A stretch of DNA of 64,000 bases from Microcaldota archaeon (lineage in GTDB: Archaea; Micrarchaeota; Micrarchaeia; Micrarchaeales; Micrarchaeaceae): assembly GCA_021797495.1 (NCBI GenBank), contig JAJZZO010000011.1:1-64000 (forward strand), in the 5' to 3' direction. Within the stretch, counting starts at the first letter, position 1. The number at the start of each line of letters is the position of its first letter. This document shows positions 59,707-64,000 of this stretch, piece after piece. The translations under genes and the position numbers were made by a program. The notes beneath the pieces were generated by a model. It saw nothing but the letters and a program-made list of their open reading frames with translations. It had not been told where the DNA came from and ran no database searches.

Positions 59707-61953
59707 TTATAGTTCCAATTTTATCTCCCTGCCCGATTCGAATTCAATGCTTTTAAGCTTTTTGCGATGTTCGTTGAGCAATTCTATCGAATATGTACGG
59801 GATTTTATCAGCTCATGCTTGAATTCAACCGCATTTGATATTATCGGAACCTCTAACATGAACGCACCCAGATAACAAAGCCTAGCGTAAGCAGGTAGTT
59901 TTTTCTGTTCCTTAAAAATAATATTTATACTAGAAACGAATGTGGCCGTTGCCGCGGAATTAACCCTGTGTCGATTAATAATAATGCTTTCCCGGTTCTT
60001 CCCATATAAATCCAATGACGAGTTGAAGTCAGTGTAACTTATTGTTTTTACAAAAACAGTATCTGGATTAACCTTTATCTCATTTTTTTTCACAACGTAG
60101 TTTAAGGCGGCGTATCCTGACTCCATGTGCTTAAGCTTATTTACCACATCGTCTTCTTCTACACCTGAAAATATCAGGTCCTCAGCCGCTTTCTTAGCCA
60201 CATCAGTAGGTTGTTTTAAGTAGAGTTTTGATTGGCAAAGCCTCCTTATATCCTGGTCTATGTCTGTTATGCTATGCACAAGCAGCATCAGGCCGATACC
60301 CTGCTTCCTGAAATCCTGTATTCTGGAGCGGATGTCAATTACGGTAGCGGATTTCGGATCGCGAAACAGCAATTGCGCTTCTTCTATACATATGAGCATC
60401 CTGAGTTTATCATCGCCTTTTATGTCGAATTTTGAGGCGATAGAGTAAAGCTGATTCAGTATTAATGCATAGAAAAAGCTTTTCATTTGGACGCTGACAG
60501 CCGAAACGTCGAATATTACTCCGCTGCTTAAAAATCCCTCGATGTCGTTCTTGCCTTCATCTGAGTATTCAGGAAATTGCAGGATTTCTACCAGGCTCTC
60601 GAGTGATGATTTTATATTCTCCCCATGTTTTGTATATTTAACAGCAGTATTGCTCCTGGTTCCATGCAGCTCTATTATGGATTCCTGTATTTCCTTGAAC
60701 AGTAAAACCGGGTTTATTACGGAATTTGATGAATAGTAACGCCTGAATGCGTTGATAAGGCATTTCTCAAGTGGTTTTTGGTACGGTCCTGATTCAGATG
60801 CCGAAGCGAGCAGTATGGCTAAATCCTGATAAAATCTCTTTATATCGACCCCCGCTGGAGGCGAGAAAAAATTTATTGGGAAACCGTCACTGCAAAGCCG
60901 TATTACCTTCATCCCCCTATCATGGCCAAAAGTTGACCATTCGGAAGTAGGTGCTATAATTGCTAAATACGGTTTTTCACTTTCCTTGCTTATCTGCGAG
61001 ATTATCCCCATAGCTTCGCTGGTTTTCCCGGTTCCGGGTAGGCCGCTTATAATCATCCCTAGGTTGAAAAGGCTTTTCTGCATTTTTATCTCCCTAAAAT
61101 CCCCAGATGACCAATAATTCACTGAGCCTATTTTTATTCCAGACTCTGAAAATGACGGTTTTGAGCTTATCGGATACCGTATTTCGTAATCCCCATAGGG
61201 CTTTATCAAACCTTCAGAGAATGCATTGCCAAAGGGTATCGCGTTCACTGAAGCTATGCTTTTTATTATCCCTACGACAGTTGCCTGTTTGATGTAATAA
61301 TCCTTGAGCATCAGAACCTTCGAGCTTATGTACTCTGAAATCTTTTGCTTATATTCCCGGTCAACCGAATCCAGCAACGCTATCTTGTAGGATAAACCGT
61401 TGTTCATTATTGAAAAGTTTATCTGCTCGAGGGCTTCTTTCAAAATCGAGGATTCCTCCGAACGGTCAAAAATTTCGTGCTGAAATGATGTTGAGTCACC
61501 CCTCCCAGCGGATAAAAAGCCCCTCAAAGTCGCATTGAACCTGCTTGGCGTTGAGCCTAATATACGTTCAATTTCAGTTTTAGTCTTACCCACATTGGCC
61601 AATGGTGTTGGAATAAAAGCTATAGCGAAAAAACCAGACCTTATGCCAATGTTAAATATGTCGGAGAATAGGTTTGGGCTAAGTGATTCGATCGATTTGT
61701 AAAATAGTGATATATGGACATTTTCCATATCGATCTCTTTTTTAATATTAGAAAATTCTATGCCGTTGATTATGCTGGATATCGAATTTATTTTGTCGGA
61801 AGGATTTTCGCAATTTAGGTATAATAACGTTGAATGCGAGGAAAAATCATAAAAAAGGACGAGTGCACTGTTAGATGCCTGTTCTAAGATAGCTTTTGCA
61901 TCTAAACCCTTACTCGGCACACCGTCAAATTTAAACAGGCTTATTTCAGGCAT
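59707..61953 (-). CDS. VirB4/CedB-like ATPase of the HerA-FtsK superfamily (748 aa)
   Basis: An N-terminal domain of about 300 residues, then Walker A in GMIISGLPGTGKTSEAMG (about 300-317), Walker B in LRMLICIEEAQLLFRD (about 517-532), and a sensor region with IQDFRKQGIGLMLLVHSITD (about 545-564). The order fits VirB4/TraC, which drive pilus and DNA-transfer machines, and CedB of archaeal DNA import. It starts at ATG 61953, overlapping the upstream gene by eight bases (ATGCCTGA). The last and largest of six coupled genes. Alternative: another HerA-type helicase; no NurA neighbour is present. Confidence 0.75.
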   Translation of the reverse strand: MPEISLFKFDGVPSKGLDAKAILEQASNSALVLFYDFSSHSTLLYLNCENPSDKINSISSIINGIEFSNIKKEIDMENVHISLFYKSIESLSPNLFSDIFNIGIRSGFFAIAFIPTPLANVGKTKTEIERILGSTPSRFNATLRGFLSAGRGDSTSFQHEIFDRSEESSILKEALEQINFSIMNNGLSYKIALLDSVDREYKQKISEYISSKVLMLKDYYIKQATVVGIIKSIASVNAIPFGNAFSEGLIKPYGDYEIRYPISSKPSFSESGIKIGSVNYWSSGDFREIKMQKSLFNLGMIISGLPGTGKTSEAMGIISQISKESEKPYLAIIAPTSEWSTFGHDRGMKVIRLCSDGFPINFFSPPAGVDIKRFYQDLAILLASASESGPYQKPLEKCLINAFRRYYSSNSVINPVLLFKEIQESIIELHGTRSNTAVKYTKHGENIKSSLESLVEILQFPEYSDEGKNDIEGFLSSGVIFDVSAVSVQMKSFFYALILNQLYSIASKFDIKGDDKLRMLICIEEAQLLFRDPKSATVIDIRSRIQDFRKQGIGLMLLVHSITDIDQDIRRLCQSKLYLKQPTDVAKKAAEDLIFSGVEEDDVVNKLKHMESGYAALNYVVKKNEIKVNPDTVFVKTISYTDFNSSLDLYGKNRESIIINRHRVNSAATATFVSSINIIFKEQKKLPAYARLCYLGAFMLEVPIISNAVEFKHELIKSRTYSIELLNEHRKKLKSIEFESGREIKLEL

Positions 61954-62224
61954 AAATAACCACAAAGGATAATTCAAGCATTATTATCGCGGAAAGCATT
62001 AGGACTGCATTTCTATCGAAATCGTTTTTCGCCAGAAGATTCCGTAAGTTCAACATTGCGACGGAAAATGATATAGCTATGGGAAAAACCATTAGTTTAT
62101 TGTGCGTACTTAATGCCATAGTACAAAATAGCCATGAAAGAATGACAGATACAGATAAAGCCATTTTGTTACTTACCCATTTGCTACTTTTCTTCCCGTA
62201 TAGCTTAGCGATATTTTCGAGCAT
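61946..62224 (-). CDS. Small membrane protein, VirB3-like candidate (92 aa)
   Basis: A basic N-terminus (AKLYGKKSSKWVSNK) is followed by three hydrophobic segments (about 21-38, 44-60, 70-92) with short polar turns. VirB3 proteins, encoded directly before virB4, are small and membrane-embedded with about this size. It starts adjacent to the stop of the 56-aa gene and overlaps the VirB4-like gene by eight bases. Assignment is by position and topology only. Confidence 0.5.
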   Translation of the reverse strand: MLENIAKLYGKKSSKWVSNKMALSVSVILSWLFCTMALSTHNKLMVFPIAISFSVAMLNLRNLLAKNDFDRNAVLMLSAIIMLELSFVVIYA

Positions 62225-62395
62225 TCAGGCACCCATCAGAATTACTACACCGACAAGCATTATGGAAAGAGACACAAATAACCCTCTCAAAAGGCGGTTT
62301 CCTGTAAAACCATAACCCAAGGAAGCCAGCGATTCTAAAAGGCATAAGAGGTAGAATGATGTGTAAACCACTGTATAGTTAAATTGAAATATCAT
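62225..62395 (-). CDS. Very small two-helix membrane protein, VirB2/CedA1-like candidate (56 aa)
   Basis: The protein MIFQFNYTVVYTSFYLL has a first hydrophobic helix (about 6-29), a short polar/basic turn TGNRLLRG (about 31-38), and a second hydrophobic helix (about 39-56). Two helices with a basic cytoplasmic turn is the plan of VirB2 pilins and CedA1-like archaeal subunits, here without a signal peptide. It starts inside the end of the upstream gene (17-base overlap) and its stop abuts the start of the next, so it is clearly part of the operon. Confidence 0.5.
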   Translation of the reverse strand: MIFQFNYTVVYTSFYLLCLLESLASLGYGFTGNRLLRGLFVSLSIMLVGVVILMGA

Positions 62396-63086
62396 CTATG
62401 ACCAACCTGTTTGATTCGAGCAACATCAACGCCAAGGCGTTTTTTCTGGAAAAGCTGCACAGCATCAGGTTTAACTCTGATTTTTCATGGATTTTGCATG
62501 TTACTATCGTCAACATTCCAGACTTAGGCAGCATTGATGACAGTTTTTTTGCTGTTTTTATGCGGATAAATGATTCGAAATCCAGCATTGCTGCTTTTGC
62601 CATTATTTTTGGCCCTGATTTTTCTGATGGGTATATGCCGGATTTTATGCAGCTTTCATATGCATATCTTGAAACCACGGCCTTTGAAGAACTAGATGAT
62701 TGGGAAACAAAACCGCCAATCCGGACAAGAGTATTGTCGCTATAGTTGATCGGGCAATACCCTGTTGATGACTCCAGAAGCGCGGTTTCCAGCTCAGTGA
62801 GGTATGGTTTATCCAATAAATCGCTTTTTAAGAAGGCACTCATGTTTTTGTTTGCCGTATTTTCCGTAGCTGTTTCTTTATATACGGATTTTTGTTTGTT
62901 CAGATGGCTATGATATAAAGTTACCGCATTCATGCTATTGATTTTATATGATGCAAAAAGGAGAAGGAAAAAACCGAAAGCGCCAAATAAAAGATATCCT
63001 TGGACCACACCACGCTGAACGAGTATTGTTCCGAATATTAATGAAAGAATTGCATATACTATGACCTCACGGCTAGTTGTGATCAT
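62379..63086 (-). CDS. Membrane-anchored protein of the VirB4-like operon (235 aa)
   Basis: Two N-terminal membrane helices (about 7-22 and 29-48) are followed by a soluble domain of about 180 residues with no recognised motif (ELETALLESSTGYCPINYSD, GIYPSEKSGPKIMAKAAMLD). ATG 63086 is chosen: it overlaps the previous gene by 14 bases and removes a 38-residue leader that has no hydrophobic segment. Could be an assembly or VirB8-like scaffold factor, by position only. Confidence 0.5.
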   Translation of the reverse strand: MITTSREVIVYAILSLIFGTILVQRGVVQGYLLFGAFGFFLLLFASYKINSMNAVTLYHSHLNKQKSVYKETATENTANKNMSAFLKSDLLDKPYLTELETALLESSTGYCPINYSDNTLVRIGGFVSQSSSSSKAVVSRYAYESCIKSGIYPSEKSGPKIMAKAAMLDFESFIRIKTAKKLSSMLPKSGMLTIVTCKIHEKSELNLMLCSFSRKNALALMLLESNRLVIDDISI

Positions 63087-63711
63087 TGTTTTGCACCGAC
63101 CTGTTGTCCTTGGCCCATCCCACCAAGGACGAATCAATCCCTGTAGACTCACAGAATTTGTTAATTGAGTACTCATCGACCCAATAAAACTTGTCAACAA
63201 ATTCTAATATCTTCGCATACTTGGAAATTATTTCGTCTTTTTGCCTGTTTTTATCAGCTTCTTTTATGGCGATCCTGGAAAGGGTTATATTGCTGTTTCG
63301 AAGCTCTTTCATGAATTCCAGTTGCAACGGGCTTTGATGCTCATGCGTTTCCTTAACCTTTTCCAGATCGCGCAGGGCAGAAATTACCAGAGGGTATAGT
63401 GATTCTAACCTAGCCTCATACACGCCTTCCAGATATGTAAGTATGGAAAGGGCAATCATAACCACCTTGTTCAGGCTAGGAAGTGAGTCGTATCTGGACC
63501 TAAATTCCATAGTTATAATGTCTTTACCAAAGCTCATGTGCACAGATGAACCATGAACCCCCAAATCTATTTGGAATATGCTACGTGTTCCATCGGAAAG
63601 CAATTTAGCATTAGGCATGCAAGACATTACACGCAAGAGCTCCTGCTTTGTGGCAGTCCTTCTCGCGCGTATTTCTATCTCCCTTCTTATAATCTGCAAA
63701 TCCTCTTTCAT
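63073..63711 (-). CDS. Soluble protein of the VirB4-like operon (212 aa)
   Basis: Starting at ATG 63711 (one base after the previous stop), it opens with a charged helix (MKEDLQIIRREIEIRARRTA), then a beta-rich part (IFQIDLGVHGSSVHMSFGKD, ITMEFRSRYDSLPS) and ends with long helices (SKYAKILEFVDKFYWVDEY). No family recognised; no membrane segment except a weak one at KVVMIALSILTYLEG. It overlaps the next gene by 14 bases. Confidence 0.55.
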   Translation of the reverse strand: MKEDLQIIRREIEIRARRTATKQELLRVMSCMPNAKLLSDGTRSIFQIDLGVHGSSVHMSFGKDIITMEFRSRYDSLPSLNKVVMIALSILTYLEGVYEARLESLYPLVISALRDLEKVKETHEHQSPLQLEFMKELRNSNITLSRIAIKEADKNRQKDEIISKYAKILEFVDKFYWVDEYSINKFCESTGIDSSLVGWAKDNRSVQNNDHN

Positions 63712-63712
63712 T

Positions 63713-63964
63713 TCAATCCCTGACTTTTGACAATGCTGACCCAATCGAATCTGCGATAAAAAAGTCGTCAACCCCCAATTTTCTAAAGAAGTATATTATT
63801 TTTTCCCTGCTGCATTCATTTTTCAAAAGCAATAAAGCTATTTTTTCCATATCTACAGATTTCATATCGCTCTCTATGAGAAAATCGAGTTTTGCCTCTA
63901 TATCCTTGCCCAATACTGGAGCAGCAATCTCCATTATCGTGCGTTTGGTCATTTTATATTCCAT
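63713..63964 (-). CDS. Small helical protein, first gene of the VirB4-like operon (83 aa)
   Basis: A short all-helical protein (TIMEIAAPVLGKDIEAKLDF, EKIALLLLKNECSREKIIYF) without a recognised motif; the repeats of A-I-A-L-L-L and K-L-G suggest helix pairs that bind a partner. ATG 63964 is upstream; a TATA box 25 bases from the ATG at 63952 suggests that leaderless start (79 aa) may be the real one. No gene precedes it in the last 36 bases of the window. Confidence 0.5.
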   Translation of the reverse strand: MEYKMTKRTIMEIAAPVLGKDIEAKLDFLIESDMKSVDMEKIALLLLKNECSREKIIYFFRKLGVDDFFIADSIGSALSKVRD

Positions 63965-63971
63965 TGTACCA

Positions 63972-63983
63972 CACTTTAAAGTG
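63972..63983 (-). promoter_or_regulatory. Palindromic promoter of the VirB4-like operon
   Basis: CACTTTAAAGTG is a perfect 12-base palindrome whose centre TTTAAA reads as a TATA box about 25 bases before the ATG at 63952. It could be both promoter element and operator for the six-gene operon. Confidence 0.5.
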
Positions 63984-64000
63984 CAAAAATTAATCGAAAA

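Follow-up and report, generated by a model that had tools for sequence, protein, structure and literature searches.

At the end of a 64,000-nucleotide stretch of DNA from a Microcaldota archaeon (positions 1-64000 of the 77,295-bp contig JAJZZO010000011.1, hereafter the window), we identified a nine-gene operon that very likely encodes a translocation machine resembling type IV secretion systems (T4SSs). The source genome (0.96 Mb, 89% complete) is congeneric with Candidatus Micrarchaeum sp. A_DKE. The evidence as a whole favours, with moderate confidence, a chromosomal, vertically inherited, minimal T4SS-like machine of Micrarchaeota that most likely moves DNA via a contact pilus; that DNA import is its main job is quite possible and is proposed here more tentatively. 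An initial annotation of the window had suggested a machine for transfer or secretion akin to VirB, Ced and Ted, and this overall suggestion, with an ATPase that travels with conserved membrane proteins, is supported.

Results

The operon lies on the minus strand and runs from contig position 66948 to 59707, crossing the window edge, with the 5'-to-3' order M134, M334, P238, A359, P232a, P232b, T56, T92 and V748. Gaps of 12, 9, 8 and 1 bases separate the first five genes (M134 to P232a), and the last five (P232a to V748) overlap or abut by 14, 17, 0 and 8 bases; the offsets of 1, 14, 17, 0 and 8 bases reported in the initial annotation are exact with these ATG starts. Five of the six genes counted there are open reading frames (ORFs) as described, whereas the sixth, of 83 aa (63964-63713), is the C-terminus of A359, upstream of which three further genes (P238, M334 and M134) lie outside the window. 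The six-gene limit was therefore rejected, as the operon runs on beyond the window to a total of nine genes.

The pilin of the system is represented by M134 (contig 66544-66948, outside the window; 134 aa). In Pfam searches, 27 of the 36 members of its family matched T4SS_pilin (PF18895; best 4.8e-7) and 23 of the 36 matched TrbC/VirB2 (PF04956; best 4.1e-5), while the window organism's own M134 falls under the curated cut-off (17.9 vs 26.6 bits). Alignment to TrwL of plasmid R388 by hhalign gave E=5.7e-5, and in most members a hydrophobic segment at the N terminus precedes a small-x-Ala site under a lenient motif. By these Pfam matches, the pilin is this VirB2/T4SS-pilin-family protein and not the 56-aa protein to which the role had previously been assigned.

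To characterize P238 (contig 64801-65517, outside the window; 238 aa), we used the AlphaFold model of its A_DKE orthologue, which is 60% identical. The model (mean pLDDT 88) consists of two long N-terminal helices, predicted to be transmembrane (TM), followed by an alpha/beta domain that adopts the fold of the VirB4 N-terminal domain. The top 12 Foldseek matches in PDB were all R388 T4SS structures containing TrwK/VirB4 (probability 0.99-1.00, best E=3.6e-5), and matches beyond the twelfth dropped to noise; a Pfam search of the P238 family returned nothing informative. The next gene, A359 (63713-64792, of which 63713-64000 lies inside the window as the C-terminal end), encodes a 359-aa VirB4/CedD/HerA-type ATPase with Pfam matches to DUF87, AAA_10 and TraG P-loop. 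It matched CedD (3.3e-17), VirB4 CD1110 (1.2e-14) and CedB (3.4e-14) as well as HerA, the best PDB sequence matches of its profile were HerA-like helicases, and hhalign aligned it to conjugative-plasmid ATPases (E about 1e-14) and to the ATPase domain of R388 TrwK. A tblastn comparison with plasmids yielded just short matches of <36% identity. The scores against the Ced families remained far below their cut-offs (62 bits vs 600 for CedD; 52 vs 700 for CedB), and judged by sequence A359 belongs to the same superfamily as CedD and CedB, not to the same family. Since P238 and A359 together cover one VirB4, we conclude from the model and the profile matches that VirB4 is encoded here as two genes, P238 for the N-terminal domain and A359 for the ATPase domain, and the two products would be expected to assemble. 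The 748-aa protein had been taken for the VirB4 homologue; its superfamily assignment holds, but the upstream P238-A359 pair is the better match to VirB4.

M334 (contig 65527-66531, outside the window; 334 aa) is a candidate channel with 6-7 predicted TM helices. Its model (pLDDT 84) contains long membrane helices, and two cysteines, at positions 80 and 89, are invariant. Its N-terminal hairpin shows a weak alignment with M134 (E=5e-4, against 0.11 for the reversed control), which resembles the relation reported for CedA/CedA1 and VirB6/VirB2 (PMC9905601). A VirB6/CedA-like channel had been regarded as absent, yet by topology and position M334, just past the window end, is a strong candidate. 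Separately, two Micrarchaeota contigs (L129:1-11757 and L130:1-8543) carry tandem arrays of 3-4 distant M334-like genes on the plus strand, beside which the opposite strand encodes proteins of 1030-1827 aa.

To assess conservation, relatives of A359 and their neighbourhoods were taken from 40 regions. The order M134-M334-P238-A359-P232a was kept in nearly all of 41 neighbourhoods, and an arrangement with same-order homologues in about 40 independent genomes is far beyond chance. The M334 profile, searched against GTDB contigs, returned 56 loci, 54 of them close relatives labelled either as Micrarchaeota-related (Micrarchaeum, Mancarchaeum, Micrarchaeota) or as depositor-assigned Marsarchaeota. 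Distant families of the class retain M134-M334-P238-A359, or most of this cassette, with an A359 of ~480-530 aa and the V748 module mostly missing. Ca. Micrarchaeum sp. A_DKE, which is grown in co-culture, carries the operon as well (NZ_CP060530.1). On conservation in Micrarchaeota, which the initial annotation had proposed as a check, the core cassette (M134, M334, P238 and A359) recurs in order across dozens of genomes and in distant families too, and the machine is found in much of this host-dependent phylum.

V748 accompanies the operon in 37 of the 40 genomes that carry it, in many cases from a separate locus. When M334 and V748 were tallied by hand in f1 and f2 family genomes of at least 90% completeness (a few negatives meaning absent among the matches listed), 36 genomes had both, 3 had M334 without V748 (G050, G192 and G017, whose M334 contains a stop codon), 1 had V748 only (G155) and 11 had neither (Fisher p=8.5e-8, with the genomes being related and not independent). 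One genome of the same genus, G010, lacks exactly the nine genes. Its gene order is CPSF-like protein, S462 homologue and aminopeptidase, with 144 bp in place of the operon, so that the nine genes were cleanly gained or lost as a block. The 462-aa S462, encoded just upstream of the operon, was considered as a member of the system and rejected, because its homologue persists in G010 where the nine genes are gone.

Trees of M334, V748, A359, P238 and M134 each separated families f1 and f2 with no misplaced tip (support 0.97-1.0). This congruence with the family split argues for vertical inheritance, and on these trees the operon looks unlike a mobile element. Its flanks are housekeeping genes. 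Further out, ~8-9 kb upstream of the operon, lies a tyrosine recombinase with a C-terminal zinc ribbon (contig 74745-75932), adjoined by a 333-aa ORF for which no confident family match was found. In G188, a metagenome-assembled genome, the whole locus occurs twice in very similar form, on contigs C2 and C3, suggesting a strain mixture or a recent duplication.

The last gene, V748 (59707-61953; 748 aa), has a Walker A motif (GLPGTGKT) and a Walker B-like motif (CIEEAQ), together with a ~280-aa N-terminal domain and a C-terminal beta domain. By hhalign it shares its ATPase superfamily with A359 (E=1.4e-12). CedD was matched by 15 of 22 members of its family (best 5.6e-10), VirB4 CD1110 and CedB were matched as well, and the best PDB matches were HerA-like, with no match reaching the CedD or CedB family cut-offs. 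As far as its sequence tells, V748 is a second, divergent motor of the HerA/VirB4/CedD superfamily. Homology of its N-terminal domain to P238 was considered and rejected (hhalign E=0.25). The C-terminal ~110 aa (window 59707-60080) gave weak matches in some relatives to a CarboxypepD_reg-type/Ig-like beta sandwich, an unexpected end for a VirB4-like ATPase. Elsewhere in the genome, only two DUF87 matches besides A359 were found, at C15:42752-42955 (L003) and C17:59493-59852 (L002), in ORFs of 575 and 536 aa.

Four smaller genes lie between the two motors. P232a (63073-63711; 212 aa), directly after A359, is predicted to be soluble and has homologues in most loci; P232b (62379-63086; 235 aa) has 1-2 predicted N-terminal TM helices and a soluble domain; T56 (62225-62395; 56 aa) is a predicted two-TM hairpin; and T92 (61946-62224; 92 aa), a predicted three-TM protein directly upstream of V748, may anchor V748 in the membrane. 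Family searches gave no match for T92 or P232b and no confident one for P232a, while the T56 orthologue in A_DKE was recovered by phmmer (E=9e-9). In loci with an adjacent V748, the small middle genes mostly retain order, size and TM topology: the proteins at the P232b position have 142-341 aa and usually 1-3 predicted TM helices, those at the T56 position 47-82 aa and two, and those at the T92 position 80-114 aa and two or three.

Discussion

Several translocation systems related to this one are already known, namely Ced, Ted, archaeal conjugative plasmids, Patescibacterial T4SSs and nanohaloarchaeal VirB4-fusion proteins (PMC9905601, PMC11868833, PMC12857230, PMC12102498, PMC10266531). Like Ced of Sulfolobales (CedA, CedA1, CedA2 and CedB, with CedD and CedE; PMC11868833), the operon would be a reduced archaeal T4SS-like set on the chromosome, with a VirB2-like pilin, a polytopic (here candidate) channel and two VirB4-superfamily ATPases, and with no relaxase recognized among the neighbouring genes examined. 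It differs in its split VirB4 (TM helices and N-terminal domain in P238, ATPase domain in A359), in its extra T56, T92 and P232a/b, and in lacking any sequence match up to the Ced family cut-offs. With Ted of Thermoproteales (TedA, TedB and TedC; PMC9905601) it shares a pilin gene directly followed by a polytopic gene and a pilin with a signal-peptide-like N terminus, TedC being cleaved (PMC9905601); unlike Ted, with which HerA, Rad50 and ParA are common, it was not seen to have any of these as recurrent neighbours, and it possesses the divergent second ATPase V748 and a split VirB4.

Among conjugative systems, R388 (TrwL/VirB2, TrwM/VirB3, TrwK/VirB4, TrwI/VirB6) offers counterparts for the P238 fold and the A359 ATPase domain in TrwK and for M134 in TrwL, whereas no VirB5, VirB7-B11, VirD4 or relaxase gene was recognized in the present operon and M334 is not demonstrably homologous to TrwI. 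The Sulfolobus plasmids pNOB8, pKEF9 and pING1 likewise encode DUF87/VirB4-type ATPases and a three-TM pilin-like protein of ~106 aa, and pNOB8 and pKEF9 an 8-9-TM protein, but these plasmids are mobile, carry a one-piece VirB4-like protein of >1000 aa, and the polytopic proteins of pNOB8 and pKEF9 have no detectable homology to M334. The Patescibacterial systems, as far as the consulted parts of their description go (PMC12102498), are mostly relaxase-free chromosomal T4SSs of ultra-small host-dependent monoderms, and PF18895, which M134 matches, serves there as a profile for VirB2-like pilins; they have a bacterial MPF_FATA-type VirB4 and a separate VirB3, with no split VirB4 reported in those parts.

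The explanation that we favour is the following model. M134 would be exported, cleaved and built into a VirB2/TedC-like pilus or conduit on a base of M334, which would serve as the membrane channel in place of VirB6/CedA. P238, in which a VirB3-like TM hairpin is joined to the N-terminal domain of VirB4, would dock A359 beneath M334, and V748, probably anchored by T92, would act as a second VirB4/CedD-type motor, in an arrangement resembling CedB plus CedD of Sulfolobales, both of which are required for import in Saccharolobus (PMC11868833). T56, P232a and P232b may be accessory parts. DNA would be moved through the contact pilus, probably taken up in a Ced-like manner from partner or sibling cells. 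The relationship to CedD, CedB and HerA makes DNA the most likely cargo, and analogy makes import its most likely direction.

Several observations weigh against this model. M334 had no VirB6 match in Pfam, PDB sequences or PDB folds, nor did hhalign connect it with R388 TrwI or with the pNOB8/pKEF9 polytopic protein, so that its proposed channel role draws on topology, gene order and the weak VirB2-like N-terminal hairpin. By hhalign, V748 lies nearer to the HerA-like ORF of its own genome (L003) than to R388 VirB4. Moreover, in the gene neighbourhoods inspected, no relaxase or DNA-processing gene was found to recur beside the operon (relaxases were not searched for genome-wide), and the locus itself therefore identifies no substrate. 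Archaeal conjugative plasmids in any case lack recognizable relaxases (PMC12857230).

The main rival reading is that the same machine carries another cargo, acting as a protein (or metabolite) T4SS aimed at the Thermoplasmatales host, as comparable roles have been proposed for systems of Patescibacteria and nanohaloarchaea. The group is host-dependent, with A_DKE growing with a Thermoplasmatales host (PMC8975820), and Patescibacterial T4SSs, usually without a relaxase, are proposed to be co-opted (PMC12102498); the lack of a recurring DNA-processing neighbour points the same way, as do large proteins with weak Ig-like/macroglobulin matches that follow the cassette in some distant families, where Pfam searches of adjoining genes gave one transglutaminase and otherwise weak Ig-like matches. 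We nevertheless consider this reading less likely, though well worth keeping in view, as the f1 and f2 loci show no consistent linkage to effector-like genes, DNA translocators (CedD, CedB and HerA) are among the best ATPase matches, and G010 lives without the system, which is therefore not universally needed. That the ATPase instead belongs to a HerA-NurA-like DNA repair or end-resection module, accompanied by unrelated membrane proteins, is suggested by the HerA-like best PDB matches of both A359 and V748. This is highly improbable: NurA (PF09376) was not found in the 89% complete genome at E<=0.1 while controls were positive, across the class the ATPase is accompanied by a pilin of the VirB2 family and by a VirB4 N-terminal domain, and several membrane proteins are conserved with it. 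The initial annotation had itself named a HerA/NurA grouping with unconserved small proteins as the outcome that would speak against a transfer machine; instead, the genes co-occur and the genome has no detected NurA. Least credible of all is a conjugative element (an integrative and conjugative element or plasmid) transferring its own DNA. Its VirB-like parts and the tyrosine recombinase upstream fit such an origin, but the five component trees separate f1 and f2 perfectly with no recent horizontal spread, the flanks are housekeeping genes, V748 sits apart from the other genes in many genomes, no match was found among viral contigs, and the neighbouring genes include no recognized relaxase.

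No earlier description of the operon was found in the open-access literature searched, which is not proof of absence elsewhere. Type IV pili, Sec and Tat are the secretion systems given in the Mia14 genome paper, in which no mention of VirB was found (PMC5498576), and a recent T4SS review, in the parts consulted, covers archaeal plasmid systems with no mention of DPANN archaea (PMC12857230). We tentatively raise the possibility of a class-wide, undescribed archaeal T4SS-like family with a two-piece VirB4, joined in Micrarchaeum-type lineages by a T92-V748 second motor module, by which host-dependent archaea may exchange DNA or proteins with their hosts. The operon itself extends T4SS-like chromosomal systems in archaea past Ced and Ted and adds a split-VirB4 architecture to the T4SS superfamily. 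ARMAN cells have been observed in pili-like contact with Thermoplasmatales, the transfer machine not being known (PMC5864196, PMC5498576), and the means by which DPANN archaea that depend on hosts exchange material with them have yet to be established. The operon is a concrete, conserved candidate for this exchange, and as it is carried by A_DKE in co-culture, its predictions are testable there.

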